From contig WOVA01000015.1 of the NCBI GenBank assembly GCA_009773155.1, forward strand, positions 1-52,116: 52,116 nt of DNA, in the 5' to 3' direction. The translations under genes were made by a program, and so were the position numbers. This DNA is from Elusimicrobiota bacterium. GTDB lineage: Bacteria; Elusimicrobiota; Elusimicrobia; Elusimicrobiales; UBA9959. Shown piece after piece: positions 36,327 through 50,133 of this stretch (the first letter of the stretch is position 1; every line of letters starts with the position of its first letter). Under the pieces are notes generated by a model. It worked only from the letters and a program-made list of their open reading frames with translations. It was not told the origin of the DNA and made no database searches.

Positions 36327-37660
36327 TGCTAAGCCGCGTGGGTCTCAAGAAGGGGCGCATGGACTGGGTCATCCTGGCCGCGGCCGCCGGCCTGCTTTTC
36401 ATAGGCACGCTGGCCGTGTTCTCTTCGGTGGGAGTGCTGGCCAGCTACGAGAGGATAGTGCGCACCCACCTGATCGCCATACCTGTCGCGCTGCTTTTTT
36501 TCTCGGTGGCCTGGAGCCTCAATTACCAGGTCTACCAGGACCAGTGGAAGTTCGTCTACGGCCTTTCTCTCCTCTTCCTGGCCGGAGTGCTGTTCTTCGG
36601 CGTGATGGACAAGGGCTCGCGCTCCTGGTACCGCCTGCCGTTCTTCTCCGTGCAGCCGTCGGAACTGGCCCGCATCGGCCTCATAGTCGCGCTCGCCAAC
36701 TATCTCGACCGCCGCGGGGGCAAGATGCGCGAGTTCGGCAGTTCCCTGGGGGCCCTCCTGCTCTCCATCCCCTTCCTCCTGCTGCTGATGAAGCAGCCGG
36801 ACTTTTCCGCCATCCTCACGACCTTTCCGGTGGTGCTGGCCATGATCTTCTGCGCCGGCGGCGGCGTGGCGCATATCGCCATCATAGTTGGATACGCCGC
36901 GGTCTCGGCCCTGTTTCCCATCCTCTGGACTCTGCTCGCGATGAGCCCGGAACTGGCGCAGAACCCGCTGCTGGGATTCTTCGCCGGCCTCTCCAGTTTC
37001 GGCTGGGACACGCTGCTCTTCGTCGCCGCCGTCGGGGCGCTGGCCTGGTTCGGCTGGTTCCTTTCCGTTAAACTTTATTCCAACCTCTCGGGGGTCTTCT
37101 TCACCGGCGCGGCGCTGGTCGTCATATTCGGTTTCTTCTCCGGCATGCTGGTCAGGAACCAGATGAAGGAGTACCAGCAGAAGCGGCTGGAGGTGTTCCT
37201 CTCGCCGGAAAGCGACCCGCGCGGGGCCGGCTACAACCTGATACAGGCCAGGATCGGCATGGGCTCGGGCGGCGTCTTCGGCAAGGGCGTGTTCTCCGGC
37301 ACGCAGTCCAGGCTGGGCTTCGTCCCGGAAAGGCACACGGATTTCATACTCGCCGTAGTGGGCGAGGAGATGGGCTTCATGGGCACCGGCCTGGTGATGA
37401 CCCTCTACCTTACGCTGCTCTACCGGCTCAAGGGCGCCGCGCAGCTGGCGAGGGACAGGTTCGGCTACCTGCTGTGCTGCGGCATATTCTCTCTCTACAT
37501 GGTGTACTTCCTGATAAATTTCGGGATGCTGCTGGGTTTCGCTCCGGTCGCGGGTGTCCCGCTGCCGCTGGTCTCCTACGGGGGCTCCAACCTGGTGGCC
37601 ACTTTCTTCGCGCTGGGCCTGGCCGAATCCGTCTATTCCCGGAGGTACGCGCTGGTATGA
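36326..37660 (+). CDS. rodA: Peptidoglycan glycosyltransferase RodA (SEDS family)
   Basis: RodA polymerises glycan strands from lipid II. The 444-residue membrane protein has the SEDS signatures SRSWYRLPFFSVQPSELARIG (about residues 93-113), GSGGVFGKGVFSGTQSRLGFVPERHTDFILAVVGEEMG (read in parts, about 310-350) and the C-terminal GVPLPLVSYGGSNL (about 411). It is about 70 residues longer than E. coli RodA because of a larger central loop and helix region. Starts within the mrdA stop. Confidence 0.95.
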   Translation: MLSRVGLKKGRMDWVILAAAAGLLFIGTLAVFSSVGVLASYERIVRTHLIAIPVALLFFSVAWSLNYQVYQDQWKFVYGLSLLFLAGVLFFGVMDKGSRSWYRLPFFSVQPSELARIGLIVALANYLDRRGGKMREFGSSLGALLLSIPFLLLLMKQPDFSAILTTFPVVLAMIFCAGGGVAHIAIIVGYAAVSALFPILWTLLAMSPELAQNPLLGFFAGLSSFGWDTLLFVAAVGALAWFGWFLSVKLYSNLSGVFFTGAALVVIFGFFSGMLVRNQMKEYQQKRLEVFLSPESDPRGAGYNLIQARIGMGSGGVFGKGVFSGTQSRLGFVPERHTDFILAVVGEEMGFMGTGLVMTLYLTLLYRLKGAAQLARDRFGYLLCCGIFSLYMVYFLINFGMLLGFAPVAGVPLPLVSYGGSNLVATFFALGLAESVYSRRYALV

Positions 37661-38340
37661 CTGCCGAAGAGAACAGGCCCGCCCCCGTCATGCGCTGCCG
37701 CATGCGCTTCGAGCGCCGCGGCGGGGCGGCCGGCCCGAGCCACCTCGAGCAGATAAAAGAGCTCCGGGCGCTGGTCTCCGGCTCGGGCCTGGAATATTAC
37801 GGCTCCAGGGGCGCCGGGGACGGCGCGCCGAGGATGGCCTTCGGTCCCGCGGCCGGGGCGGGTCACGAGAGCCTGTGCGAGTACGCCGACGCCTGGTTCG
37901 CGCGGCTTTACCCGGAGGAGGCGCTGCGCTCGGCTTTTTCCGCCGGCGCCCGTGGGCTGGCGCTCGCCGCCCTGCGGCGCGTGCCGCTGCTCTTTCCCTC
38001 CATCGAGGCCAGCGCCTCGGTCGCGCGGTTCGAGCTGACTTTTTCATCGGCCCCTCCGGAGGCGGAGCGCAGGCTGGCTGAATTCATGGCCGCGGCCGAG
38101 TTCATCGCGGAGCGGGAAAAGAAAGGGGAGAAGGTCCGCTATGACCTGAGGCCCGCGGTCGTTTCGCTGGCCTGGGACACGCCGGCAGTCAGGCTGAGCG
38201 CGGCGCTCAGGCTGCGCGCCGGCGGGAGGGCCGAGGTCCTGGCCGCGGCCCTCTTCGGCCCGGAGGCGCCGGCTTTCACGGTGCTCAGGACCGGGCTTTA
38301 CTGGGAAGATTCGTCGGGAGAGTTGAGGGAAATTTTGTAA
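37657..38340 (+). CDS. DUF2344 (TIGR03936) family protein
   Basis: The 227-residue protein resembles the DUF2344 'radical SAM-linked' family: an N-terminal RCRMRFERRGGAAGPSHLEQI, then RMAFGPAAGAGHESLCEYADAW, and a beta-rich region ending ASVARFELTF (about residues 120-130). Family members are usually encoded next to, or fused with, a TIGR03960 radical SAM protein and just before rng. Here rng follows, but no radical SAM gene precedes; rodA does, overlapping by 4 bp. Biochemical function is unknown; a link to RNA or translation is inferred from the neighbour only. Confidence 0.75.
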   Translation: MTAEENRPAPVMRCRMRFERRGGAAGPSHLEQIKELRALVSGSGLEYYGSRGAGDGAPRMAFGPAAGAGHESLCEYADAWFARLYPEEALRSAFSAGARGLALAALRRVPLLFPSIEASASVARFELTFSSAPPEAERRLAEFMAAAEFIAEREKKGEKVRYDLRPAVVSLAWDTPAVRLSAALRLRAGGRAEVLAAALFGPEAPAFTVLRTGLYWEDSSGELREIL

Positions 38341-38346
38341 GGCGCC

Positions 38347-38384
38347 ATCGGCGGGGGACACCATGCGGCATGGCGTCCCGGTAC
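38347..38384 (-). repeat. Repeat family B, copy B4 (upstream of rng, reverse orientation)
   Basis: On the minus strand it reads GTACC-GGGACGCCATGCC, then GCATGGTGTCCC, then CCGCCGAT, with one arm mismatch (GCG for GTG). The palindrome is 38355-38379. It begins 6 bp after the DUF2344 stop and ends 34 bp before the rng start. Confidence 0.85.
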
Positions 38385-38418
38385 AATCCCGCCGTGGGCA
38401 GGAGGATATTTAAGGATC

Positions 38419-39870
38419 ATGGCAAACGAGAAAAAGATCAGGAAAGAAATCTTCGCGAACACCTCTTTCGAGGAGACGCGTATAGCGATAGTCGAGGACG
38501 GCCGTATGGCCGAGCTGTTCTGGAAGCGCCAGTCGAGCAGCAATATAGTCGGCAATATCTACAAGGGAGTGGTGGAGAACGTGCTGCCCGGCATCTCGAG
38601 CGCGTTCATAAACATAGGCCTGGACAAGAACGCCTACATCTACATTTCCGACGTGCTGGGCAGCCAGCGCGACCCGATAGAGAAACTGCTCAAGAAGGAC
38701 CAGGAAGTGCTGCTGCAGGTCACCAAGGACGCGATAAGTACCAAGGGCATGAAGGTGACCATGGACGTGTCGCTGCCCGGGCGCTACCTGGTCTTCACTC
38801 CGTTCCAGGAATTCATCGGGGTCTCCAAGAACATCGAGGAAGCCGACGAGCGCAAGCGCCTCTCCGACATCATCAAGAAGATCACGACCGACGCCGATAT
38901 GGGCAAGAAGGGCTGTATCGTGCGCACCGAGGCCGAGGGCGCGTCCGAGGAGGAACTCGAGCGTGAACTTAAATTCCTCATACGGCTCTGGGAGTCCATA
39001 ATCGGAAGCTTCGAGACGGCGCGTCCGCCCGCGCTGCTGCACAGGGACATGGACCTGCCGATGCAGGTGGCGCGGGACATACTTTCCGAGGACACCGCCA
39101 TCTACATGCTCGACAATAAGGACGATTTCAGCAGCGTGCAGGATTTCGTGGCCAAGATGTCCCCGGACCTGAAGGACCGGGTGAAGCTCTACGAGGGCAA
39201 GACCCCTCTCTTCAAGGCCTTCAATCTGGAGAAAGGCCTGGAGGAACTGCGCAAGATAAAGGTTGAGCTGCCCAACGGGGGCAGTATCATCATACAGGAG
39301 GCCGAGTCGCTCTGCGCCATCGACGTCAACACCGGCCGCTTCACCGGCAGCCGCTCGCAGGAGGAGACGGTCACCCTCAACAACGTAGAGGCCGCGCAGG
39401 AGATAGCCAGGCAGCTGCGGCTGCGAAATATCGGCGGCATCATCGTCATCGACTTCATAGACATGAAGAAGGCCTCCAACAGGCAGAAGGTGGTCACCGC
39501 TCTCGAGAGCGCCGTGAAGAACGACCGCGCCAAGATACGCATACTGCCAATCACGCGGCTCGGCCTGGTCGAGATGACCCGCGAGCGCAAGCGGGAGAGC
39601 ACGCTCAGCCTGCTGACCGAGGAATGCCCCGAATGTCATGGCTCCGGCCGGGTGCTCTCCAGCGAGACCATCAGGATAAAGATACAGCGCGAGATACGCG
39701 ACCTGACACTGGGCCGCCCCGGCGGCGCCCTGCGCGTGATACTCAATCCGATGCTGGCGGACCTGATACGCCGCAAGCACGAGCTCATGGAGAAGAACGT
39801 GCAGCGCTCGTTCAAGATAGCCTCCGACCCCCAGCTTACCTGGGAAGATTACAGGATAGTGCTGGAGTGA
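38419..39870 (+). CDS. rng: Ribonuclease G (RNase E/G family)
   Basis: This endonuclease cleaves single-stranded AU-rich RNA, with roles in 16S 5' maturation and mRNA decay. The 483-residue protein has an S1 domain (about residues 38-120, with GNIYKGVVENVLPGISSAFINIG), the catalytic Mg2+ aspartates in AIDVNTGRFTG (about 302) and VIDFIDMK (about 345), and the zinc-link motif CPECHGSGRV (about 404). It lacks the long C-terminal scaffold of RNase E. RBS AGGAGGATATTTAAGG is rather far from ATG. Confidence 0.94.
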   Translation: MANEKKIRKEIFANTSFEETRIAIVEDGRMAELFWKRQSSSNIVGNIYKGVVENVLPGISSAFINIGLDKNAYIYISDVLGSQRDPIEKLLKKDQEVLLQVTKDAISTKGMKVTMDVSLPGRYLVFTPFQEFIGVSKNIEEADERKRLSDIIKKITTDADMGKKGCIVRTEAEGASEEELERELKFLIRLWESIIGSFETARPPALLHRDMDLPMQVARDILSEDTAIYMLDNKDDFSSVQDFVAKMSPDLKDRVKLYEGKTPLFKAFNLEKGLEELRKIKVELPNGGSIIIQEAESLCAIDVNTGRFTGSRSQEETVTLNNVEAAQEIARQLRLRNIGGIIVIDFIDMKKASNRQKVVTALESAVKNDRAKIRILPITRLGLVEMTRERKRESTLSLLTEECPECHGSGRVLSSETIRIKIQREIRDLTLGRPGGALRVILNPMLADLIRRKHELMEKNVQRSFKIASDPQLTWEDYRIVLE

Positions 39871-39899
39871 GCGGCTTCCCGCGAAATGAAGGAGAAAGC

Positions 39900-41549
39900 A
39901 TGCTGAGGAAAATTCTGATATCCCTGGTCTTCGCCGCGGCCGCGGCGGCGCCGGTCTCCGGCGCCGTGGACGAGGCCTCGTTCAGTAAAAACGGTAAATA
40001 CGTAGGCAAAGTCGAGACCTATTCCTATGGCGGCGCCGTCTATTTCGACGCGGCCCGCCTTACTCGCTACCTGGGCGGGAAGATCTACTGGTACCCGGTA
40101 TCGGGCAAGATGGTCTTTCAGCTCAAGGGGAAGAAGGTGCAGGCTTCGGTCAAGAGCGACGAGGTCCTTTTCGACAGGGAATCCGTCATGATCAGGGCCC
40201 CGGTGATAGTCCGGGGAGGGAAATCCTTTCTTTCCAGGGATTTCTTCGCCTCGCCGAATTTCTATTCCTGCTTCGGCTTCAGCCTCCGCTACGACGAGGC
40301 GGCCGGGTCCCTGGAGGCGACGGAGAAAATGAGCGTGGCTTCTTACAGCTATTTCTCCCACAAGGACAAGACCCGCCTGGTGCTGTATCTGAACGGGCCG
40401 CTCGAATACCAGACGTACCAGAGGGCCAACAACCTCCTTCTGCTGGTCGTGAGCGGCGGCAGCGTGGCCGACCCGGAGAGGATCGCCGTAGACGACGGAG
40501 TGGTCAAGGCCATCGACATGACGCAGGATAACAAGGCGCTGCGCATCGGCGTGGCGATGGGGGAGAACGCCGCCGGCTTCAACGCTTTCAAACTGTCCGG
40601 GCCGGACAGGATAGTACTCGACGTGCTGGCCAGGATGCCCTCGCAGGGCGGAGCGCCGGCCCCGGCCTCCGCCGAGCCCGCGGCGGCGCCCGAAGTAATA
40701 CCGCCGTCCGCTCCCGCGGCCGCGGACAAAACCGTTTTCCCCGCTCTTTCTCCCTCCTCGATGCCGTCACCGTCGGTGCTGGCCCCGGCGGCCGATAGTC
40801 CGTCCGCGCCGCCCGCGCCGGCGCCGGTGACGTCAGGCCTGCCCGACAAGGCGGTCGTCGATCCCAAGGCCAGGAAGAGCGTCATAATCGACGCCGGTCA
40901 CGGCGGCAGGGACCCGGGCGGCCGCAGGATCTCGGGCATGAAGGAAAAGGACATCAACCTGGCGGTAGCCAGAGAGCTGCAGGCGCTGCTGAAGAAAGAG
41001 GGTTTTTTCGAGGTGCTCATGGTGCGCACTTCCGACGTCTTCGTCCCGCTGGCGGCGCGGTCCGAGTTCGCCAACAGGCACAATGCCGATATCTTCATCT
41101 CGCTGCACGCCAATGCCACGCGCCGCTCCACCGAACACGGGTTCGAGATATACTTCATGTCGGAGAACGCGTCGGACCCGATGGCGGCCGAGGTCGCCGA
41201 CTACGAGAACTCCGTCCTGGACCTGGAGGAGGAACCCTCCCGCCCCGACCCGGCGGCCATGCTGCTGCATTCCCTGGCCCGCAATGAATACCTCAACGAG
41301 GGCAGCCAGCTCGCGGCTTTCGTCGCCCGCGAGTTCGAGAAGCACACCCCGTTCAAGAGCCGCGGCGTCAAGCAGGCCGCTTTTTATGTCCTGCGCGGGA
41401 CCTACGCCCCGGGAATACTGGTGGAGATGGGGTTCATGACCAATCCCCGCGATCAGAAGAACCTGAGCAGCAGCAGCGTCCAGGCCAAGATGGCCCGGGC
41501 CATACACAACGGGCTCGGAAAGTACGCCGAGCTCAAGGGCTGGAAATAG
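39900..41549 (+). CDS. N-acetylmuramoyl-L-alanine amidase (Amidase_3), secreted
   Basis: The enzyme cuts the amide bond between MurNAc and the stem peptide, acting in the periplasm. The 549-residue protein has a Sec signal peptide (residues 1-22), an N-terminal region with copper-amine-oxidase-like and AMIN-like segments (about 30-245), a long Ala/Pro/Ser linker (about 245-320), then the zinc-dependent catalytic domain: SVIIDAGHGGRDPGG (zinc His), FISLHANA (zinc His) and GILVEMGFMTN (catalytic Glu). RBS AAGGAG fixes the start at 39900; the open frame extends back into rng but is not used. AmiC-like. Confidence 0.92.
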   Translation: MLRKILISLVFAAAAAAPVSGAVDEASFSKNGKYVGKVETYSYGGAVYFDAARLTRYLGGKIYWYPVSGKMVFQLKGKKVQASVKSDEVLFDRESVMIRAPVIVRGGKSFLSRDFFASPNFYSCFGFSLRYDEAAGSLEATEKMSVASYSYFSHKDKTRLVLYLNGPLEYQTYQRANNLLLLVVSGGSVADPERIAVDDGVVKAIDMTQDNKALRIGVAMGENAAGFNAFKLSGPDRIVLDVLARMPSQGGAPAPASAEPAAAPEVIPPSAPAAADKTVFPALSPSSMPSPSVLAPAADSPSAPPAPAPVTSGLPDKAVVDPKARKSVIIDAGHGGRDPGGRRISGMKEKDINLAVARELQALLKKEGFFEVLMVRTSDVFVPLAARSEFANRHNADIFISLHANATRRSTEHGFEIYFMSENASDPMAAEVADYENSVLDLEEEPSRPDPAAMLLHSLARNEYLNEGSQLAAFVAREFEKHTPFKSRGVKQAAFYVLRGTYAPGILVEMGFMTNPRDQKNLSSSSVQAKMARAIHNGLGKYAELKGWK

Positions 41550-41561
41550 GGCGGCGGAGAT

Positions 41562-42485
41562 ATGAAGAGGAACGAGCGTCCGGAAAAAGGCGACATTGTC
41601 CGCAGTCGGTGCCGGGGCCGGGCGACACAGCGCCCGGCACCTGCGGAGCCGGAGGCTCGTTGTTCCGAGCACTGCGACCGGCCGATAGGCGTGTTCGACT
41701 CGGGGCTGGGCGGCCTGACCGTGCTGGCCGCCATGCGCCGCGCGCTGCCCCGCGAGAATTTCATATATTTCGGCGACACGGCCAGGGTCCCCTACGGCAC
41801 CAAGTCGCCCGAGGCTGTGACCAGGTTCTCGTCGGAAATAACGGCCTGGCTCGTCGCCAAAGGGATAAAGACCCTGGTCGTCGCCTGCAATACCGCCTCG
41901 TCGGTCGCTCTCGACGCGGTGCGGGCGGCGGCGGCCGGCGTGCCCGTTACCGGAGTGATAGAGCCCGGCGCCGCCGCTTTCGCCGCCTCCGGCGGCAGGA
42001 AAGTCCTCGTTATCGGCACCGCCGCGACGGTCGCCAGCCGCGCTTACGGCCGGGCGCTGCGCCGCGCCGCGCCGGGGGCGCTGGTCACCGAGCAGGCCTG
42101 TCCGCTCTTCGTCCCCCTGGTGGAAGAGGGCTGGAGCGACCCCGCGCGCGGCCGCAGGGCCGCCGCGCTGACCAGGCTGGCCGCCGAAGAATACCTGTCG
42201 CCTTACCGCGGTAAGGGCTACGATTCGCTGATACTCGGCTGTACCCACTACCCGCTCCTAAGGAACGTAATCGCGCGGGTCATGGGCCGCAAAATTAATA
42301 TAATTGACTCTGCGGAAGCTGCCGCTCTCTCGGTACGGGAGACGCTGGCCCGGGAGGGCCTGCTGCGCCGCACCGGCCGGGGATCGGTGAGTTTCTTCGT
42401 CAGCGACGCCCCGGAGCGGTTTTCGGCTCTCGCGGCCGCCCTGCTCGGAATAAAACCCGGCAAGGTCGGCGTGAAGAGGCTCTAG
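41562..42485 (+). CDS. murI: Glutamate racemase with in-frame N-terminal repeat
   Basis: MurI makes D-glutamate for peptidoglycan. The family normally begins within a few residues of RPIGVFDSGLGGLTVL; here that motif starts at residue 40. Residues 10-41 are encoded by a 96-bp family A repeat, giving a 307-residue protein. Catalytic cysteines are C109 (ACNTASS) and C227 (LGCTHYPLL), both intact. The ATG at 41562 has a GGCGGAGA RBS, and there is no in-frame ATG or TTG between it and the motif; a GTG at 41692 would remove RPIG, so translation through the repeat is likely. Confidence 0.92.
   Translation: MKRNERPEKGDIVRSRCRGRATQRPAPAEPEARCSEHCDRPIGVFDSGLGGLTVLAAMRRALPRENFIYFGDTARVPYGTKSPEAVTRFSSEITAWLVAKGIKTLVVACNTASSVALDAVRAAAAGVPVTGVIEPGAAAFAASGGRKVLVIGTAATVASRAYGRALRRAAPGALVTEQACPLFVPLVEEGWSDPARGRRAAALTRLAAEEYLSPYRGKGYDSLILGCTHYPLLRNVIARVMGRKINIIDSAEAAALSVRETLAREGLLRRTGRGSVSFFVSDAPERFSALAAALLGIKPGKVGVKRL
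41590..41685 (+). repeat. Repeat family A, copy A2 (in frame inside murI)
   Basis: Gapless match to 3371-3466 (86/96). Predicted pairing: outer stem CGCAGT/ACTGCG (41601-41606 with 41671-41676), inner GGTGCCGG/CCGGCACC (41608-41615 with 41634-41641), then GAGCC-GGA-GGCTC (41646-41658), which can alternate with GCTCG-loop-CGAGC (41655-41670). Ninety-six bp is divisible by three, so the racemase frame is kept. It encodes residues 10-41 of MurI. Confidence 0.88.
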
Positions 42486-42498
42486 GAGATCCCTCATT

Positions 42499-42888
42499 AT
42501 GAAAAAAGTCCTATTCCCGTTACTGCTGGCGCTCCTTCCGCTTTCTCTTTATTCCCAGCAGAAACCGCCGGCCGCCGCCAGGACGGACGCCGCCGCCCAG
42601 CCGGCCAAAACGGAGGACGAGGACGGGGCTGTCATGATAGACGGTTCCGAATCGTCCGCGCCCGCCCACCAGGCCTCCACGGAAGAAGCGGCCGAGGCCG
42701 CGCAGTCCCGGGACCCCAACGCCCTGCCCGCCTCGCTGGGCGACGTGAAAGGGGTTTTCAGCGACGCCGGACGCAATATACTGGTGCTCCAGGCGGACGA
42801 CGGGAGCGTGAACTTCGTGCAGGTCGTTTTTAGCAGGACCGGGGTGTCCTGGAAGCCCGCCGGGTTCCTTTACAGGAGCAGGGAATAA
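42499..42888 (+). CDS. Small secreted protein of unknown function
   Basis: I do not recognise this 129-residue protein. It has a clear Sec signal peptide (KKVLFPLLLALLPLSLYSQ, residues 2-20), a disordered Ala/Glu/Asp-rich middle (about 21-72) and a compact C-terminal part with a repeated beta-like pattern (DVKGVFSDAGRNILVLQADDG, then VNFVQVVFSRTGVSWKPAGF in the second half). RBS AGGAGAT. A TATAAT-containing AT-rich island in the end of murI (42291-42305) might add a promoter. Confidence 0.7.
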   Translation: MKKVLFPLLLALLPLSLYSQQKPPAAARTDAAAQPAKTEDEDGAVMIDGSESSAPAHQASTEEAAEAAQSRDPNALPASLGDVKGVFSDAGRNILVLQADDGSVNFVQVVFSRTGVSWKPAGFLYRSRE

Positions 42889-42909
42889 ATCTTTTTCGGA
42901 GGTGTTTAT

Positions 42910-43098
42910 ATGAAACGCAAAGAACTGGTCCGTTATCTAACACAGGAGGGCTGCGTGCTCTCGCGCGAAGGAGGGAAATACTCCATTTTCACCAACCCGG
43001 CCACGGCCAAGGAAGTGCCGGTCACGCGCCATACGGAAATAGCCGATTTTACGGTCCGCAAGATCTGCCGCGACCTCGGCCTGGAGCCGCCCAGGTGA
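42910..43098 (+). CDS. hicA: HicA-like protein, solitary and lacking the catalytic histidine
   Basis: HicA toxins are small double-stranded-RBD-like mRNA interferases inhibited by HicB. This 62-residue protein fits the family: KRKELVRYLTQEGC at the N-terminus, REGGKYSIFTNP, then PVTRHTEIADFTVRKICRDLGL. The usual catalytic histidine (family pattern EGGKH or EGSNH) is replaced by tyrosine at position 24. No HicB antitoxin lies on either side. It may be a domesticated RNA-binding protein or a dead toxin. RBS CGGAGGTG is strong; the stop overlaps the next gene. Confidence 0.85.
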   Translation: MKRKELVRYLTQEGCVLSREGGKYSIFTNPATAKEVPVTRHTEIADFTVRKICRDLGLEPPR

Positions 43099-43502
43099 GA
43101 CGGCTGCTGCCGGCCTGCGTCCTGTTGTCCTCTCTGGCCGCCTGCGCTTCTCCGCGGGTCGACGTTATACAGGTCGGGCCCTGGTTCCAGCCCAGGCACT
43201 GGAAGCAGGTAGAGGTGTTCGCTTCCAAGAACGAGACCCGCAAGCCCTGGGGCGCTATCGCGGTGATGCACGGGGAGAGGATACGCGGCCGGGACGAGAG
43301 GGCCTTCGAGCGGTACAAGAAGAAAGCGAGGCGGCTCGCCGCCGATATCGGAGCCGACGCGATAATAGTTTCCCCCGAGCCGGTGAACGACACCGCCTCC
43401 CCGGGCTCCCACAGAGAGGGAGCCACCGGCCTGGTGGTCCTCACCGGCGTCGCCTTTAAATATGCAGAGAACGTTTCCACGGGAACGCGGCGCGGTCCCT
43501 GA
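43095..43502 (+). CDS. Putative lipoprotein of unknown function
   Basis: The 135-residue protein starts with GTG overlapping the hicA stop (GTGA). It has a lipoprotein signal, RRLLPACVLLSSLAACASP, with lipobox LAAC and lipidated Cys17. The mature part contains EVFASKNETRKPWGAIAVMHGERI and an Ala/Asp region ending ADAIIVSPEPV, reminiscent of small periplasmic lipoproteins that follow an AhpC- or YceB-like fold, but I cannot name a family. The 3' end overlaps the next start by 41 bp. Confidence 0.7.
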   Translation: MRRLLPACVLLSSLAACASPRVDVIQVGPWFQPRHWKQVEVFASKNETRKPWGAIAVMHGERIRGRDERAFERYKKKARRLAADIGADAIIVSPEPVNDTASPGSHREGATGLVVLTGVAFKYAENVSTGTRRGP

Positions 43503-44166
43503 ACGAAAGGTCGCCTATGAGCCCGGCGAGGCCCGGGCCTGGCGGGGCCGTGCCGTTGTCATCGACCTCTTCCGTTTTTCGAACACGGTCTGCGCTCTTC
43601 TCGAGAGCGGGCGCCGCGATGTGAGGGTCTACGCCGACCCGTCGCTGGCCGTGGCCGCCGCGCGCGCCTCGAAGGCCGACCTCTTCTCGGAGATGGACCT
43701 TCCCGGCGTGGAGAAATACGACAATTCGCCCGTGACCGCACTCTCCGGCTCCGACCCTGCGAAGGCGGCCGTGATAGTGACCAATTCCGGTTCCAAGGCC
43801 GTCATGGCCTGCCCGTCGGCGGCGGAGATACTCATCGGCTGCTTCGCCAACGCCGCCGCCCTGAGCGCTCACTGCGCGGCTTCGCCCATGAGCACCCTTT
43901 TCGTTCCCGCGTGCCTGTATTACGACAGGGCCCACGCGGAGGATTTTTCCTGCGCCCGTTTCCTGGCCGGCGAGATGTCGTACGGCGACGCAGTCGCCGA
44001 GATACATTCCAGCGGCCGCCCGCTGGACTTCCTGGCGGGCCGGCCGGGCGGAAGGCGGGACCTGGAAATGTCTCTTTCAAAGGACCTTTTCACGGGAGTG
44101 CCGTCCGCCAGCCATCGCGGGATATTCGCGCCGGTATTTCCCGCCGCGGCCGGGGGGGAGAAGTGA
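43462..44166 (+). CDS. ComB-like 2-phosphosulfolactate phosphatase family protein
   Basis: The 234-residue protein matches the ComB fold: GRAVVIDLFRFSNTVCALLESG near the start, YDNSPVTAL (family GNSP), VIVTNSGSKAVMAC (family TTTNGT) and EILIGCFANAAAL. ComB acts in coenzyme M synthesis in methanogens, but many bacteria without coenzyme M encode homologues of unknown substrate. The start at 43462 overlaps the lipoprotein gene by 41 bp and has no good RBS; other starts are not evident. It overlaps queC by 4 bp, suggesting a shared unit with queC-queE. Confidence 0.75.
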   Translation: MQRTFPRERGAVPERKVAYEPGEARAWRGRAVVIDLFRFSNTVCALLESGRRDVRVYADPSLAVAAARASKADLFSEMDLPGVEKYDNSPVTALSGSDPAKAAVIVTNSGSKAVMACPSAAEILIGCFANAAALSAHCAASPMSTLFVPACLYYDRAHAEDFSCARFLAGEMSYGDAVAEIHSSGRPLDFLAGRPGGRRDLEMSLSKDLFTGVPSASHRGIFAPVFPAAAGGEK

Positions 44167-44843
44167 AGCGCCCGGAGGCCGTGGTCCTTTTTTCAGGCGG
44201 GCTCGATTCGACCGTCGCGTTATGCTGGGCTCTTTCGGAAGGCTATGTCTGCAGCGCCGTTTCTTTCGCCTACGGACAGCGCCACGCCCGCGAGAACCGC
44301 AGCGCCAGGGTCATAGCCCGCCGCCTCGGCGTCAGACTTTACGACATAAAGCTGGACTTCCCGTGGTTCGGCACCAGTTCACTGGTCGGCGGGCGCGGCC
44401 GGCTGCCGGAGCAGAAGTCGTCGGCGATAGGACGCCCCGGCGACATTCCGTCCACCTATGTGCCGGGCCGCAACCTCGTTTTCACTTCCGCCGGCATCTC
44501 GCTCGCCGACGCCAGAGGCGCGCGCGCCGTCGTGCTGGGCCCCAACGCGGTGGACTATTCCGGCTATCCGGACTGCCGGCCCGCCTTCTACCGCGCGCTT
44601 GAGAGGGCCGCCGCTTTCGGCACCCGGCAGGGCGACAGGGGGGAGAGGATAAAGCTGCTTACTCCTCTCATAAAGCTCAGCAAGGCCGGCATAGTCCGGC
44701 TGGGGAGAAAGCTGAAGGCCCCGCTGGAACTGACCTGGTCCTGCTACGCCGGAGGCCGGCGTCCCTGCGGCCGCTGCGATTCCTGCAAGCTGCGCGCCAG
44801 GGGCTTTGCCGCCGCCGGCGTCGCCGACCCCGCGCTGAAATGA
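44163..44843 (+). CDS. queC: 7-cyano-7-deazaguanine synthase
   Basis: QueC converts 7-carboxy-7-deazaguanine to preQ0 with ATP and ammonia, in queuosine synthesis. The 226-residue protein starts with GTG inside the comB stop, after RBS GGGGGAG. It has the PP-loop SGGLDST (residues 11-17), PGRNLVFTSAGISLAD, GPNAVDYSGYPDCRPAFY and the C-terminal zinc site CYAGGRRPCGRCDSC. queE follows with a 4-bp overlap. Confidence 0.94.
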   Translation: MKRPEAVVLFSGGLDSTVALCWALSEGYVCSAVSFAYGQRHARENRSARVIARRLGVRLYDIKLDFPWFGTSSLVGGRGRLPEQKSSAIGRPGDIPSTYVPGRNLVFTSAGISLADARGARAVVLGPNAVDYSGYPDCRPAFYRALERAAAFGTRQGDRGERIKLLTPLIKLSKAGIVRLGRKLKAPLELTWSCYAGGRRPCGRCDSCKLRARGFAAAGVADPALK

Positions 44844-45559
44844 AAACCGCGGCCGCTCCCGTACACGAGATCTTCTGTTCCCGGCAGGGCGAGGGCCTGT
44901 ACTGCGGCCGGCGTCAGGTTTTCCTCCGTTTCGCCGGCTGCAACCTGGACTGCTCGTACTGCGACGAGCCCGCGGCCCGCTCTCTCCCGTCTTTCATGAT
45001 GACGCCGGCCGAAGCCGCCGCCGAGGTCATAAGGCAGGCGCGCCGCGGCCGCGCCAGGATGGTCTCTCTGACCGGCGGCGAGCCGCTGCTGCGCTGGCGG
45101 TTCATAAAGGCGCTGGCTCCGGCGCTGCGGAGGGCCGGCCTGGCCCTGCACCTGGAGACCAACGGCACGCTGTACCGCGAGCTTGGCGAAGTCATCGGAC
45201 TGGTGGACGCGGTGGCGATGGACGTAAAGATCCCTTCCTCCGGCGGACACCGGCCGCTCTGGTCCGCCCACCGCCGGTTCCTGTCCGTCGCGCCGGGCAA
45301 GACTTTCATAAAAGCCGTCCTGACCTCCTCGTCGTCCATGTCAGACCTGCGGCGCGCCGCGGACCTGGCCGCAGCCGCGGGACGCGATATCCCTTTCTTC
45401 ATACAGCCGGCATCGGCGGGGGACACCATGCGGCATGGTGTCCCAGTACCGCTTCCGCCGTCGGCCCGACAGGTCCGCGAGGCGGAGTCCTACGCGAAGA
45501 GCCGGCTTGAAAGAGTGAAGGTCCTCCCGCAACAGCACCCGCTGTGGGGAGTGAAGTAG
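44840..45559 (+). CDS. queE: 7-carboxy-7-deazaguanine synthase with in-frame repeat
   Basis: QueE is a radical SAM enzyme making 7-carboxy-7-deazaguanine. The 239-residue protein has the cluster motif CNLDCSYC (C34, C38 and C41), SRQGEGLYCGRRQVFLRFAG before it, SLTGGEPLLR (about 76-85) and the C-terminal VKVLPQQHPLWGVK. Residues 191-205 ([15 protein letters not shown]) come from a family B repeat placed between FFIQP and PPSARQVREAE, a surface segment near the C-terminus. The frame is intact. queD, queF and folE are not in the window. Confidence 0.93.
   Translation: MKTAAAPVHEIFCSRQGEGLYCGRRQVFLRFAGCNLDCSYCDEPAARSLPSFMMTPAEAAAEVIRQARRGRARMVSLTGGEPLLRWRFIKALAPALRRAGLALHLETNGTLYRELGEVIGLVDAVAMDVKIPSSGGHRPLWSAHRRFLSVAPGKTFIKAVLTSSSSMSDLRRAADLAAAAGRDIPFFIQPASAGDTMRHGVPVPLPPSARQVREAESYAKSRLERVKVLPQQHPLWGVK
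45412..45452 (-). repeat. Repeat family B, copy B5 (in frame inside queE)
   Basis: On the minus strand it reads GCGGTACT, then the perfect palindrome GGGACACCATGC-C-GCATGGTGTCCC (45420-45444), then CCGCCGAT, nearly identical to B1 and B3. It lies wholly within queE codons 191-205 and adds about 14-15 residues without breaking the frame. Confidence 0.88.
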
Positions 45560-45567
45560 GAGGAACC

Positions 45568-45873
45568 ATGTCCGAAGGCTCTTTTCTTATAGACTGCCCC
45601 TGCTGCAAGGCCCGCATAGAGGTGGACCGCAAGACCGGCAAGGTCCTGCGCCACTGGGACAAGCCCAGGCTTAAGGACGGCGCCGATCCCATGCAGGAGG
45701 CGATGAAGAAGATGCAGGAGGACAAGGCCAGGCTCGACGGCTATTTCTCCGGGGCCAGGGACGAGATGGACAAAAAGAAGCGGGACCTCCTGGACAAGTT
45801 CGAGAAGGAGAAGAAGCGCATAGAAGAGTCCGGCGAGGACATAAAGCCGATCAATCCCATGGACCTGGACTGA
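45568..45873 (+). CDS. Small CPCC-motif coiled-coil protein, unknown function
   Basis: I do not recognise this 101-residue protein. It begins MSEGSFLIDCPCCKARIEVD, a possible half zinc ribbon, followed by a helical, strongly charged region (about residues 38-90: EAMKKMQEDKARLDGYF, KKKRDLLDKFEKEKKRIEES) likely to form a coiled coil. Start 45568 is chosen for the strong RBS AGGAGGA; the upstream part of the frame overlaps queE. A strong terminator follows, so it ends the transcription unit. Confidence 0.75.
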   Translation: MSEGSFLIDCPCCKARIEVDRKTGKVLRHWDKPRLKDGADPMQEAMKKMQEDKARLDGYFSGARDEMDKKKRDLLDKFEKEKKRIEESGEDIKPINPMDLD

Positions 45874-45900
45874 CCCCTCTTCAGATAAACCCAGGCCATC

Positions 45901-45929
45901 GGGCCCACCCGCGGGTGGGCCCTTTTTTT
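45901..45929 (+). terminator. Intrinsic terminator after the queE unit
   Basis: A perfect 22-bp palindrome GGGCCCACCCG/CGGGTGGGCCC (45901-45922) is followed directly by seven T residues (45923-45929). It ends the unit before the first PLD gene. Confidence 0.93.
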
Positions 45930-45975
45930 ATCCGGAAGAGCCTTTTTGGCCCTGTCGCCGCTCCAGCGGCGGGGC

Positions 45976-45981
45976 TAGACT
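45976..45981 (+). promoter_or_regulatory. -10 box, leaderless-type promoter of the first PLD gene
   Basis: TAGACT (TANNNT) ends 6 nt before the ATG at 45988, and no Shine-Dalgarno is present. The flanking GCTAGACTATAGGCATG is nearly the same as the sequence in front of the second PLD gene. A transcript would start at or next to the A of ATG. Confidence 0.6.
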
Positions 45982-45987
45982 ATAGGC

Positions 45988-47643
45988 ATGGTAAAAAACA
46001 CCTCACTCCTTTTCAAGGCTTTCGTCATGGCCATCTTCCCCGCAGCCGTTTTCGCCCAGGGCGATTATGATTCCCGCCTTGGCGAACTCCAGTCCGGGAT
46101 GGAGCGCACCGCCGAGGCCCTCGGCGTGCCTCTGCACGAGGACTGGGCCGCGGATCTCTCCGGGCGCTTCGACGGCTCACTTTCGGGAGATCAGTCGGCC
46201 GCTCTTCAGCTGACCCCTCTGCGCGCCCCGGCTTCCTTGCCCCGGGTGCCTTCGCTGCCGGTCATACCACCGCTCCCCGCCGATTACCCGCTTCCCGAAC
46301 CCGTCTCCTATACCGGCACCGCCGTCATCGTCTGGCACGCACTGGGCGCCCAGCTCTCCGACAACGGCTGGATACCGTGGGCCGATTCGGCTCCGACCTT
46401 CGACGAGATCTCCAAGCGGGTCCTCGATGTTTCCGTTTCCAGGGCCTATCCCGCCCGCCGCGCCGGCCAGCAGTCCCTTTTCAGGGACGCCGGCTTCCTG
46501 GCCGAGTACGAGCGCGCCACGAAAGCGCCCTTCCGCGACGGCAACAGCGCCCGCTACCTGGTCGACGGCCCCGCCTCTTTCGCGGTGCGCGACCGCCTGA
46601 TGCGCGAGGCCAAAAAGAGCCTGCTGGTATCGAGCTGGGCCTTCTACGACGATATAACCGGCTGGGAGGCCGCCCAGTACCTCATCCTGAAAAAGCGCGA
46701 GGGCCTGGAAGTGAAGGTCATCGTGGACAAGAAGGTGGCGGTCGGCCACGGCCGGCGCGTGCTTAAGTTGATGGAGCAGGCCGGCATAGAGGTCCTGCGC
46801 TACGAAGAGAAGGACCGCGGCAACGATATCTGGCACGTCAAGATGATGATAGTCGACGACGCCTACGCCATAGTCGGCGGCCTTAATTTCGGCGACGTCT
46901 ACTCCCACAAGGACCCCAATAACGTCAAATGGCGCGACACCGACGTGCTCTACTCCGGTCCCGCCGTGGCCGAGAGCCGCCGCCTCTTCGCCCGCCTCTG
47001 GAATTCCAAGGTCCGCGAATTGAAGCTCAAGTTCTCTCCCGTAGCCGAGACCGCGCCGGCCGGCGCCTACGAGGGCGGCTCCGCTAAAGTGAGCGTGATA
47101 CTGCAGGACCCCCCGACCGATTCCAATGTTCTGGTCAGCATAGTAAAGGCCATGTACGGCGCCACCGGGCGCATCAATATAGAGAACGCCTATTTCGTCG
47201 CCCTGCCGGTGGTCACTAAGGCCGTCCTGGACGCGGTCTCCCGCGGGGTGGAGGTCAATATCATCACCAACTCCAAGGAGAGCATCGACCCCGAGGGCAA
47301 GGTCATAGTGGAGGCCATGTACGAGTGCCTGATGCCGCTGGCCGCGGCCGGCGCCAACATCTATCTTTACCAGGGTTCGGCCACGCTGCATTCCAAGTTC
47401 ATGACCGTGGACGGGGTGTTCGCCAATATCGGCTCCTATAACCTGCACCCGCGCGGCGAGCGCTACGACACGGAGGTCAATGTGAGCATAATCGACCCCG
47501 TCTCCACCGCCGAACTGGACGCGGCTTTCGCCGCCGACGTGGCCATGTCCCGCAGGGTCACCTCCCCCGACCAGTTGGGGGAGCGGCCGGGCTGGCTTTC
47601 GAGCTTCGTTTCCGAGTACTTCTACGCGCAGTTGAAGAAATAA
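45988..47643 (+). CDS. Secreted phospholipase D-like protein 1
   Basis: The 551-residue protein has a Sec signal peptide (about residues 1-23, ending VFAQ) and two HKD catalytic motifs: HVKMMIVD from H283 and HSKFMTVD from H468, each followed by the GGLNFGD or GSYNLHP stretch typical of the cardiolipin-synthase-like PLD branch. It should act in the periplasm or outside, on phospholipids or another phosphodiester. The second PLD gene downstream is a paralogue sharing both motifs and much of the sequence. Its own leaderless-type promoter follows the terminator. Confidence 0.88.
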   Translation: MVKNTSLLFKAFVMAIFPAAVFAQGDYDSRLGELQSGMERTAEALGVPLHEDWAADLSGRFDGSLSGDQSAALQLTPLRAPASLPRVPSLPVIPPLPADYPLPEPVSYTGTAVIVWHALGAQLSDNGWIPWADSAPTFDEISKRVLDVSVSRAYPARRAGQQSLFRDAGFLAEYERATKAPFRDGNSARYLVDGPASFAVRDRLMREAKKSLLVSSWAFYDDITGWEAAQYLILKKREGLEVKVIVDKKVAVGHGRRVLKLMEQAGIEVLRYEEKDRGNDIWHVKMMIVDDAYAIVGGLNFGDVYSHKDPNNVKWRDTDVLYSGPAVAESRRLFARLWNSKVRELKLKFSPVAETAPAGAYEGGSAKVSVILQDPPTDSNVLVSIVKAMYGATGRINIENAYFVALPVVTKAVLDAVSRGVEVNIITNSKESIDPEGKVIVEAMYECLMPLAAAGANIYLYQGSATLHSKFMTVDGVFANIGSYNLHPRGERYDTEVNVSIIDPVSTAELDAAFAADVAMSRRVTSPDQLGERPGWLSSFVSEYFYAQLKK

Positions 47644-47647
47644 GTCC

Positions 47648-47706
47648 GGGGACATTGTTTAGTTGTTTAGTTTTTCAGCAAAACTAAACAACTAAACAAC
47701 GTCCCC
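47648..47706 (+). repeat. AT-rich 59-bp inverted repeat between the PLD genes
   Basis: Arms 47648-47674 and 47680-47706 are 27 bp each with one mismatch and a 5-nt loop (TCAGC). The outer ends are GGGGAC/GTCCCC and the interior repeats TTGTTTAG twice. Composition is sharply AT-rich against the surroundings. It starts 4 bp after the PLD stop. No U-run follows, so it is not a simple terminator. It resembles the REP-like hairpins moved by Y1 (RAYT) transposases, but no transposase is here. Confidence 0.85.
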
Positions 47707-47784
47707 ACAAGACCCCCGGGGGCCTGGGCCCTATTCCGGCCCGTATTTTCCCTTTGGACCCCTGAAAAACAGCGGCCCTGCCGC

Positions 47785-47790
47785 TAAACT
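47785..47790 (+). promoter_or_regulatory. -10 box, leaderless-type promoter of the second PLD gene
   Basis: TAAACT (TANNNT) lies 6 nt before ATG at 47797. CTGAAA at 47762-47767, 17 bp upstream, is a possible -35. The segment GCTAAACTATAGGCATG matches the first PLD promoter at 16 of 17 bases. No Shine-Dalgarno is seen. Confidence 0.6.
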
Positions 47791-47796
47791 ATAGGC

Positions 47797-49335
47797 ATGA
47801 TCAAAAAGACCATCGCCCTTGCCTTGGCCTCCGTTATAATCCCTTCCATATCGAGCGCCGGCTCCGCCGACCTCGACTCCTTGATGGCCCAGATCGAGGC
47901 CTCCGGCCTGGCGGCCGGCCAGCAGATAGATATGCCCTCCGATATGCCGCAGGCCAAGGCCGGCCTGGGCGGCGGCACTATAGGCGAGCAGGCCGGCGTG
48001 GTCTGGGGTTACGGCGTGACCATCTACCACGCTATAGCCGGACAGATAACCGACAGCGGCGTCCTGCCCTGGACCGCGGCGGCCCCCGATTTCGAAGAGA
48101 TCTCCCGGAGCGTCCTGCTCAAAGCCGCCGAGACCCGGTATATGCCCCGCAAGGGCGGCGCCCCTTCCCTGCTGGAAGACGAGGGCTTCATCCGCGAGCT
48201 GGAGCAGGCCTCCGGCGCCCGCTTCACCTCCGGCAACGACACCGATTACCTGATAGACGGCCCCGAGGCGTTCGCGGCCAAGGACGCGCTCATCATGGGA
48301 GCGCGCGAGAACCTTTTCGTGGCCAGCTGGGCCTTCTACGACGACGAGACCGGCTACGCGGCTGCCGACCTGCTGATCGCGGCCAAACGCCGCGGCGTGG
48401 ACGTGCGCGTCATGGTGGACGGCAAGGTCGCCCGCAGTCACGGCCCCCGCGCGCTCAAGCGGATGGAGCGCGCCGGCGTGGAGGTCCTGCACTACCAGGA
48501 GATCGGCCGCCGGCACGATATCTGGCATGTCAAGACCAGCATAGCCGACTGGACCACCGCCATCACCGGCGGCATGAACTTCGGCGACGTCTATTCGCAC
48601 CGCGGCGACGGTGCCAAGTGGCGCGACACCGACGTGCGCTACTCCGGCCCCGCGGCCTACGATACGGCGCTTATCTTCCGCAGCGAGTGGAACTCGCAGG
48701 TCTCCGCCCGCCCCAGCTCCGGCCTGACCCGCATCCCCGCGCCGACGGCGCGCCCGGGTTCCTACGGCTCCGCCCGCATAGCGCCGGTGCTGCAGAACCC
48801 CCCGACCGACTCCAAGATACTGCTGAGCATGATAAAGGCGATGTACGGCGCCTCCCGCGAGATCAACGTGGAGAACGCCTACTTCGTCGCCCTGCCGGCC
48901 GTGACCCGGGCCCTGATCGACGCCCTGCACCGCGGCGTGAAAGTGAACGTGCTGACCAACTCGCCCGACAGCCTCAACGGCCAGTGCAAATCGATGGGCG
49001 TGCCGCTGCTCAAGAGTCTGGTGGCCCTCAAGGCCGAGGGCGCCGGCGTTTATCTCAAGCAGGGCGACACGCTGCACTCCAAGTTCATGACCGCGGACGG
49101 GGTGTTCGCCAATATCGGCTCCTATAACCTGCACCCGCGCGGCGAGCGCTACGATACCGAGCTTAATGTCAACGTGCTGGGCCGCGAGGGCGTGGCCGAG
49201 CTGGACCGCGCCTTCCTGGACGACATAGCCGCCGCCAAACGCATCGACCGCGTCGAGGACCTCAATATCCAGGAGACCTGGCTGTCCAGGTTCATCGAGG
49301 AATATTTCATGGCGCAGCTCGCGCGGAAGAAATAA
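47797..49335 (+). CDS. Secreted phospholipase D-like protein 2
   Basis: This 512-residue paralogue of the preceding PLD protein has a Sec signal peptide (about residues 1-23) and HKD motifs HVKTSIAD from H244 and HSKFMTAD from H427, with GGMNFGD and GSYNLHPRGERYDTE following. A segment ENAYFVALPAVTRALIDAL and the preceding LQNPPTDSKILLS are shared with its neighbour almost word for word. The two genes probably arose by tandem duplication including the promoter. Substrate unknown. A terminator follows. Confidence 0.88.
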   Translation: MIKKTIALALASVIIPSISSAGSADLDSLMAQIEASGLAAGQQIDMPSDMPQAKAGLGGGTIGEQAGVVWGYGVTIYHAIAGQITDSGVLPWTAAAPDFEEISRSVLLKAAETRYMPRKGGAPSLLEDEGFIRELEQASGARFTSGNDTDYLIDGPEAFAAKDALIMGARENLFVASWAFYDDETGYAAADLLIAAKRRGVDVRVMVDGKVARSHGPRALKRMERAGVEVLHYQEIGRRHDIWHVKTSIADWTTAITGGMNFGDVYSHRGDGAKWRDTDVRYSGPAAYDTALIFRSEWNSQVSARPSSGLTRIPAPTARPGSYGSARIAPVLQNPPTDSKILLSMIKAMYGASREINVENAYFVALPAVTRALIDALHRGVKVNVLTNSPDSLNGQCKSMGVPLLKSLVALKAEGAGVYLKQGDTLHSKFMTADGVFANIGSYNLHPRGERYDTELNVNVLGREGVAELDRAFLDDIAAAKRIDRVEDLNIQETWLSRFIEEYFMAQLARKK

Positions 49336-49349
49336 GGCCGGGCCCGGCG

Positions 49350-49387
49350 AAGGCCCCCGCCCCGGACCTCTCCGCGGCGGGGGCCTT
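49350..49387 (+). terminator. Terminator-like hairpin after the second PLD gene
   Basis: AAGGCCCCCGCC (49350-49361) pairs perfectly with GGCGGGGGCCTT (49376-49387) over 12 bp around a 14-nt loop, followed by GTCGTTT. The U-run is poor, but the stem is strong and lies between separate transcription units. Confidence 0.65.
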
Positions 49388-49439
49388 GTCGTTTCCCGGA
49401 GGAAGTAGAAAAAAGCCGGGATAAAGCGGAAAAAGACAA

Positions 49440-49469
49440 TTGTTTTTACCGGAACTTAAGGAGTATACT
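49440..49469 (+). promoter_or_regulatory. Promoter of wrbA
   Basis: TTGTTT (49440-49445) and TATACT (49464-49469) are 18 bp apart in an AT-rich stretch following the terminator. The -10 has five of six consensus bases, the -35 three or four. A start near 49476 gives a leader of about 45 nt containing the RBS GGAGGAGG. Confidence 0.6.
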
Positions 49470-49521
49470 TTCCGCTGAACCGGGCGCCGGTCGGGTAAGG
49501 CTGACCCCGGAGGAGGATACC

Positions 49522-50133
49522 ATGAAAATATTGCTGGTTTATTATTCGATGTACGGCCACATGTATGAGATGATAAAGGCTGCCGCCGAGGGCGCGAAGT
49601 CGGCCGGCGCCGAGGTGGAGATAAAGCGCGTGCCCGAAACGCTTTCGGAAGAGGTGATCGGCAAGATGGGCGCGCTGGAAGCTCAGAAAGCCCAGGCCGC
49701 GGTTCCGGTCTGTTCTCCGGACGACCTGGCGAAAGCCGACGGCATAATGTTTGGCACTCCCACGCGCTTCGGCAATATGTGCGGCCAGATGCGGCAGTTC
49801 CTGGACGCCACCGGCGGCCTCTGGGCGAGCGGCGCCCTGGTCGGCAAGGTCGGGAGCGTGATGTCGAGCTCGGGCACGCAGCACGGCGGGCAGGAGTCCA
49901 CGATACTTTCCTTTCATATAACGCTGCTCCATCACGGCATGGTGGTTGCCGGTCTGCCCTACGCCTTCCAGGGCCAGATGGGCGTGGAGGAAGTAAAAGG
50001 CAGCTCGCCTTACGGCGCCTCCACTATAGCCGGCGGGCAGGGCGAGCGCATGCCCAGCAAAGTAGAGCTGGAGGCCGCCCGCTACCAGGGCAAATACGTG
50101 GCGGAGCTGGCGAAGAAGCTGTCGGCTAAGTAA
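49522..50133 (+). CDS. wrbA: NAD(P)H:quinone oxidoreductase, WrbA family
   Basis: WrbA is an FMN-binding flavodoxin-like enzyme that reduces quinones by two electrons, limiting oxidative stress. The 203-residue protein begins [19 protein letters not shown] (FMN phosphate loop) and has [24 protein letters not shown] (family pattern, about residues 74-97), [10 protein letters not shown] and [21 protein letters not shown] is near-ideal. It forms its own unit between a promoter and a terminator. Confidence 0.95.

Follow-up and report, generated by a model that had tools for sequence, protein, structure and literature searches.

We analyzed a 52,116-nucleotide stretch of an Elusimicrobiota bacterium genome (contig WOVA01000015.1, positions 1 to 52,116; here called the window), in which a gene on the forward strand at positions 42910 to 43098 encodes a small protein of the HicA toxin family, named HicAL here. 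We favor, with moderate confidence, the interpretation that HicAL is an ancient HicA that has lost its antitoxin and its catalytic histidine and is kept as a nontoxic, probably RNA-binding core protein. The domestication of a HicA toxin is well supported by the comparison of orthologous sequences: HicB is missing, the residues His24 and Pro39 are replaced throughout by Tyr24 and Thr39, and the same face of the protein is under strong constraint, a combination that fits domestication with retained ligand binding. That a whole class would retain one copy of a toxic HicA with no antitoxin is hard to imagine, which also counts in favor of domestication.

The open reading frame (ORF) of HicAL starts with an ATG at 42910, has a stop codon ending at 43098, and encodes 62 amino acids. 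A Shine-Dalgarno-like GGAGG at 42898 to 42902 (forward strand), 7 nucleotides before the ATG, agrees with the strong ribosome-binding site proposed in an earlier, sequence-only reading of this DNA. Membership in the HicA family is indicated by a PF07927 match of 38.9 bits against a cutoff of 27; an NCBIfam scan gave a single subthreshold match and nothing above, and a sequence search of the PDB returned 5yrz alone (E value, 0.036). Residues 19 to 24 read REGGKY, the last of them, Tyr24, being encoded by a TAC codon at 42979 to 42981 (forward strand). The numbering of HicAL agrees with that of Burkholderia pseudomallei HicA at Leu10, Gly22, Phe27, Val36, and Val38, residues named in the available part of Butt et al. 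(PMC3969222), so that Tyr24 occupies the site of the catalytic His24. In the B. pseudomallei protein, H24A and G22C abolish toxicity, and G14C, S23A, and P41A do not (PMC3969222); the other studied HicAs covered in the available part of a review have a histidine at the equivalent site (PMC11594946).

The predicted structure of HicAL is that of a HicA. An AlphaFold2 model (mean predicted local distance difference test score, 90.9) has helices at residues 3 to 12 and 46 to 55 and strands at 16 to 20, 24 to 29, and 34 to 39, which is the alpha-beta-beta-beta-alpha HicA fold resembling a double-stranded RNA-binding domain (dsRBD). Six HicA chains took the first seven Foldseek places together with 1whz, which comes from Thermus and served Butt et al. 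as a HicA model (PMC3969222, available part); all Foldseek E values were above 0.001, and we relied on rank, TM-score, and Z. Alignment with VIA-align gave Z scores of 9.9 for 6g26_E, 9.6 for 6hpb_A, 9.4 for 1whz, 8.8 for 5yrz_B, and 8.4 for 4p78_C, followed by 6.3 for the nuclear magnetic resonance model 4c26 and, in the next row, 5.3 for the PI-PfuI intein. With HicA chains ranked first, the model is in line with the earlier view that the fold is well kept.

Orthologs of HicAL were found in many Elusimicrobia genomes. A first set consisted of the window's own genome and 60 related ones; of these 61, 36 gave one match each, and the 24 that belong to family f2 gave none. In a wider search, a profile built from 23 copies was run over 340 genomes of the phylum and matched 102 of them at 107 places, which fell into two score groups. 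The high-score group (at least 96.8 bits) comprised 91 places in 91 genomes, all in the window's class, Elusimicrobia: 57 of the 59 genomes of the window's family (f1), 3 f2 genomes, and 31 genomes of f9, f10, f12, f13, f14, and f15. The low-score group (at most 83.5 bits) comprised 16 places, all with His24. No match at an E value of 1e-6 was obtained in the other 238 genomes, many of which belong to the same class and to f2. The gene is single copy in the 57 f1 genomes, and the two f1 genomes without a match are 68% and 79% complete; with the conserved gene block described below, this does not resemble the mobile, patchy distribution that is a trait of HicAB toxins. Across the class its occurrence is patchy, a pattern that losses or transfers could explain. 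The 24 f2 genomes of the first set, none of which has the gene, measure 1.3 to 1.7 Mb, and three other f2 genomes, of 2.3, 2.2, and 1.2 Mb, keep it. Our guess would be gene loss in small f2 genomes, a pattern that the 1.2-Mb genome does not fit.

We also scanned named genomes with short HicAL peptides, which would miss Tyr forms with other surroundings, and detected 32 loci, of which 28 belong to the Tyr group and 4 are distant (two that reach the site, with His, and two partial matches). The 28 Tyr-group records are titled Elusimicrobia, Elusimicrobiales, or Elusimicrobiota, apart from four titled only "bacterium." No relative was confirmed in viral contigs; plasmids yielded one distant copy, with His, and phages yielded two weak matches.

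Position 24 was read in 82 of the 91 orthologs (36 and then 12 more from f1, and all 34 from outside it; the 9 unread are all from f1), and all 82 have Tyr. The sequence-only reading had described the tyrosine in this one copy; the residue is as described, but it is not special to that copy and is fixed throughout the orthologous group. When 70 Tyr forms (36 from f1 and 34 from outside it) are aligned with 18 His forms (the 16 low-score copies plus those of Acidiferrobacterales and Gemmatirosa), column 24 is Tyr in 70/70 versus His in 18/18, and column 39 is Thr in 70/70 versus Pro in 18/18. In the window, this second fixed change is the ACG codon of Thr39 at 43024 to 43026 (forward strand). 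Column 35 holds Glu in 69 of the 70 Tyr forms and other residues in the His forms, and the Tyr forms keep Gly22 (69 of 70), Lys23, Ser25, Arg40, and an invariant His41. REGGKH, earlier named as the family motif, does occur but is only one version of it: ahead of the His, the His forms have GG or GK followed by R, K, or S. When the active-site loops are taken as residues 19 to 25 and 37 to 43, bounds set after the alignment was inspected, 9 of the 14 loop positions are invariant among the 70 Tyr forms versus 6 of the 48 elsewhere; the 18 His forms have 4 of 14 and 3 of 48, respectively. Three genomes (G184, G190, and G212) encode both forms.

The two forms differ in what lies beside them. Each of the 16 low-score His-form genes is overlapped or abutted by an ORF, 67 to 129 amino acids long, whose end lies no more than 4 bases from the HicA start. 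These partners were picked by position only and are homologous to each other. A HicB profile that combines these ORFs with one HicB-like protein encoded in the window's genome recovers the 16 ORFs put into it and also that genome's second HicB-like protein, which was absent from the model; its only other hits are weaker and lie at His-form loci. At E values up to 1, the profile, which is short and could miss distant HicBs, found nothing in 69 Tyr-form loci (one of which, G179, has only 104 bases upstream) or in the 52-kb window, as the remark that no HicB is adjacent had anticipated.

A search for HicB had been proposed for the rest of the genome, and it returned two HicB-like genes on another contig, each immediately next to a canonical HicA of its own. 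The two were found, in that arrangement, with an alignment of seven HicB-like proteins to which this genome itself contributed two. Searches of the genome with PF15919 and PF05534 found none, for HicB a false negative, PF15919 having missed both HicB-like genes; in a Pfam scan of seven such proteins together with HicAs, the HicB-like ones gave matches to UPF0150, PHD_like, or HicB_lk_antitox, of which one in five exceeded a cutoff. No HicB-paired HicA that we read, a sample short of the whole HicA family, had Tyr at position 24, and neither of the observations that would have refuted the sequence-only reading turned up. Contig C85 (L072) of the window's genome carries, at 4507 to 7294, two canonical hicBA pairs, a PIN/PhdYefM pair, and a HEPN/nucleotidyltransferase pair. 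Within f1, HicB-like genes occur in 8 of the 59 genomes, and these coincide fully with the 8, out of 57 with any PF07927 match, in which there are several (Fisher P of 6e-10, nominal since the genomes are related). For the other 49, the Tyr form is the sole PF07927 match and no HicB was detected.

HicAL evolves under purifying selection, with a median omega (NG86) of 0.104 and a maximum of 0.318 over the 66 of 595 pairs whose synonymous divergence (dS) lay between 0.1 and 1.2 (dS was undefined for 334 pairs and larger for 195; the pairs are not independent). Mean identity to the window protein, calculated over f1 genomes outside the genus for hits covering at least 60%, was 76.4% for HicAL (n = 32), 75.7% for RNase E/G (n = 25), 69.4% for QueC (n = 26), 64.1% for the zf ORF (n = 28), 63.2% for RodA (n = 24), 55.3% for MurI (n = 28), and 41.2% (n = 28) and 35.2% (n = 25) for the neighboring proteins lp2 and lp1. 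Both tyrosine codons encode Tyr24 among 36 f1 copies (TAT in 23 and TAC in 13). A decayed pseudogene and a sequencing or assembly error are excluded by the fixed Tyr, the use of both codons, the low omega, and the many separate assemblies.

In a tree built from all columns, the 70 Tyr forms lie on one side of a branch (98/96), and inheritance of HicAL appears to have been mostly vertical. The suggestion that HicAL would not be used for killing is strongly supported by its fixed Tyr24, the lack of HicB at its loci, its single-copy state, its mostly vertical descent, and purifying selection.

HicAL sits among genes of the same strand. The gene lp1 (42499 to 42888), 21 bp upstream, has no Pfam family and encodes a secreted-protein-like product whose N terminus resembles a signal peptide, without an obvious lipobox cysteine. 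The gene lp2 (43095 to 43502) has a GTG start that overlaps the HicAL stop by 4 bases and encodes a lipoprotein-like product with a lipobox recognized by eye and no Pfam match over the cutoff. A lipoprotein gene had been named as the cotranscribed neighbor, which suits lp2 downstream but not lp1. Strand and spacing (the 21-bp gap and the 4-bp overlap) suggest that HicAL is cotranscribed with its neighbors. Farther upstream are an RNase E/G family ribonuclease gene (38419 to 39870; TIGR00757 over the cutoff, PF10150, and synteny) and murI, for glutamate racemase (41562 to 42485; TIGR00067 over the cutoff and a conserved neighbor). Downstream are genes for a 2-phosphosulfolactate phosphatase family protein (43462 to 44166; PF04029 over the cutoff and synteny), queC (44163 to 44843; TIGR00364 over the cutoff and synteny), and a QueE-like radical S-adenosylmethionine protein (44840 to 45559; PF04055, with QueE as the best NCBIfam models, below the cutoff). 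Two tandem PLD-like domain proteins (PF13091) are encoded at 45988 to 49335, and one or both follow the same block in several f1 genomes. Rfam gave no RNA match at 36000 to 50000 of the window, PADLOC reported no system, and a promoter scan placed one weak site, to which we give no weight, inside lp1.

At the 35 other f1 loci, several of which are on contigs that end within the block, murI precedes the gene in 32, and lp2 and queC follow it in 33 and 29, respectively; G009 and G019 retain, of the block, just the following zf ORF. Outside f1, lp2 follows the gene in all three f2 loci, and murI and queC flank it in both f9 loci. The other 29 non-f1 loci lack the block, except for an inverted comB-like match in G178. 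With lp2 as a neighbor only in f1 and f2, it is unlikely to explain a general function. The gene rlmN lies directly upstream in two f2 genomes, G124 and G125, at distances of 33 bases (L155, rlmN at 3930 to 4967, the copy whose identity was checked, in G124) and 19 bases (L156). In G137, G184, and G189 the distance to rlmN is 2 to 2.5 kb. RNase E/G, QueC, and the QueE-like protein of the f1 block, with RlmN in two f2 genomes, give a weak lead toward RNA processing or modification, weak because cell wall genes also belong to the f1 block, which f10 and f12 to f15 do not retain.

We postulate that in an ancestor within the class Elusimicrobia, the HicA of a HicBA-type module would have been left without its antitoxin gene, and Tyr24/Thr39 would have taken the place of its active-site pair His24/Pro39, with no order of the two implied, after which it would have been kept as a single-copy gene by mainly vertical descent. 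Such a protein should neither arrest growth nor cut RNA by the canonical His mechanism. Its former active-site end probably still binds a ligand, since the two loops are its most conserved part, and the fold and family make RNA the most likely ligand. HicAL could then be a small factor that binds RNA and takes part in regulation or in the maturation of RNA.

Several observations weigh against this interpretation. Many genomes of the class lack HicAL, which is therefore not essential to all of them. Clustering of crudely called ORFs from the 34 non-f1 loci revealed no constant partner gene class-wide beyond HicAL, so that no pathway is pointed to. Net charge has a median of +5 in the Tyr forms versus +6 in the His forms, and Tyr24 and the invariant His41 remain in the pocket; nontoxicity and RNA binding are both properties that we infer from sequence and fold. 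When columns 24 and 37 to 39 are left out of the tree, the Tyr forms no longer make one group and two changes are needed; one Tyr clade is not rejected on these columns (approximately unbiased test, P of 0.41), and leaving out seven long-branched His rows as well returns the Tyr forms to one side (98/87). A single origin of the Tyr forms is likely, on 58 columns only.

A broader formulation, which we consider marginally favored, is that HicAL represents a class-specific core family derived from a HicA toxin, in an antitoxin-free Tyr form, whose old face binds a specific cellular RNA or cuts through new Tyr24/His41 chemistry. The cutting hypothesis by itself, that Tyr24, perhaps with His41, replaces His24 in a mild housekeeping ribonuclease needing no antitoxin, seems to us unlikely but worth weighing. 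Tyrosine is a possible catalytic residue in other RNases, and RelE-type toxins can use it in catalysis. Conservation is highest in the active loops, where Gly22, Lys23, Ser25, Arg40, and His41 are retained, and an RNase E/G lies in the same block, but the studied HicAs need a His at this site (PMC3969222 and PMC11594946, available parts), Pro39 has changed as well, and a broad RNase would be costly without an antitoxin. Because HicB masks this conserved face in HicAB complexes (PMC11594946, available part), it might now bind a protein instead of RNA, HicAL serving as an adaptor or regulator subunit; we find this rather improbable, as no neighbor is constant class-wide and a dsRBD-like fold with positive charge fits RNA better.

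Two further hypotheses retain a link to toxin-antitoxin modules. HicAL passes the Pfam HicA cutoff, and a short profile could miss distant HicBs, as PF15919 did, so that it might be a toxin after all, restrained by an antitoxin that escaped recognition, whether a further small gene, an RNA, or a HicB of distant sequence. The loss of the catalytic His, the lack of both a constant neighbor and an Rfam match, and single-copy inheritance unlike that of a mobile module make this very improbable. Still harder to credit is a decoy role, in which an inactive HicA copy would bind the HicB of invading or resident modules. The kept fold, the three genomes with both forms, and the two canonical pairs in the window's genome suit a decoy, but the gene is also conserved in the 49 f1 genomes where nothing else matches PF07927 and no HicB was detected.

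Compared with known HicA toxins (PF07927; B. pseudomallei 6g26 and 4c26, E. coli 6hpb, S. pneumoniae 5yrz, and T. thermophilus TTHA1913 1whz), HicAL matches the same profile, has a predicted fold like that of five HicA-type entries (Z of 8.4 to 9.9), and shares Gly22, Arg40, and His41; it differs in Tyr24, Thr39, the lack of an adjoining HicB, its single copy, and its conserved f1 locus. Its closest relatives by profile (70 to 84 bits) are the REG(G/K)(R/K)H-type HicAs of HicBA pairs from the same phylum (L189 to L197), which have the same length and a KICRDL-like C-terminal end but carry His24 and Pro39 and an overlapping or abutting HicB-like ORF. Myxococcus MazF (PMC2701414) and E. coli OrtT (PMC4344625) are likewise toxin-family proteins without an antitoxin neighbor, as described in the available parts of those papers. 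Unlike HicAL, in which the catalytic residue is replaced class-wide, they have other folds and are described there as acting on cell growth or death. Gerdes 2024 (PMC10865869), in its available part, describes 14 HicA contexts, each with HicB, a viperin gene, or a fusion; these settings are varied, and none given there is a HicA that stands alone within a block of core genes. The HicA family is already known, and no Tyr-form HicA, Elusimicrobia HicA, or antitoxin-free Tyr24/Thr39 form was found in the literature searched, a single open-access library that cannot show absence from print.

Toxin-antitoxin genes are usually viewed as mobile and short-lived in a lineage. HicAL appears to be a HicA that was stripped of its antitoxin and its catalytic residue and is now a conserved chromosomal gene across a bacterial class. 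Annotation by profile would label it a toxin though two defining features fail, which calls for caution. As an example of toxin domestication it is natural and open to testing, and some genomes carry both forms next to each other; if our interpretation is true, the exaptation of a toxin into a core gene would be visible in many genera.
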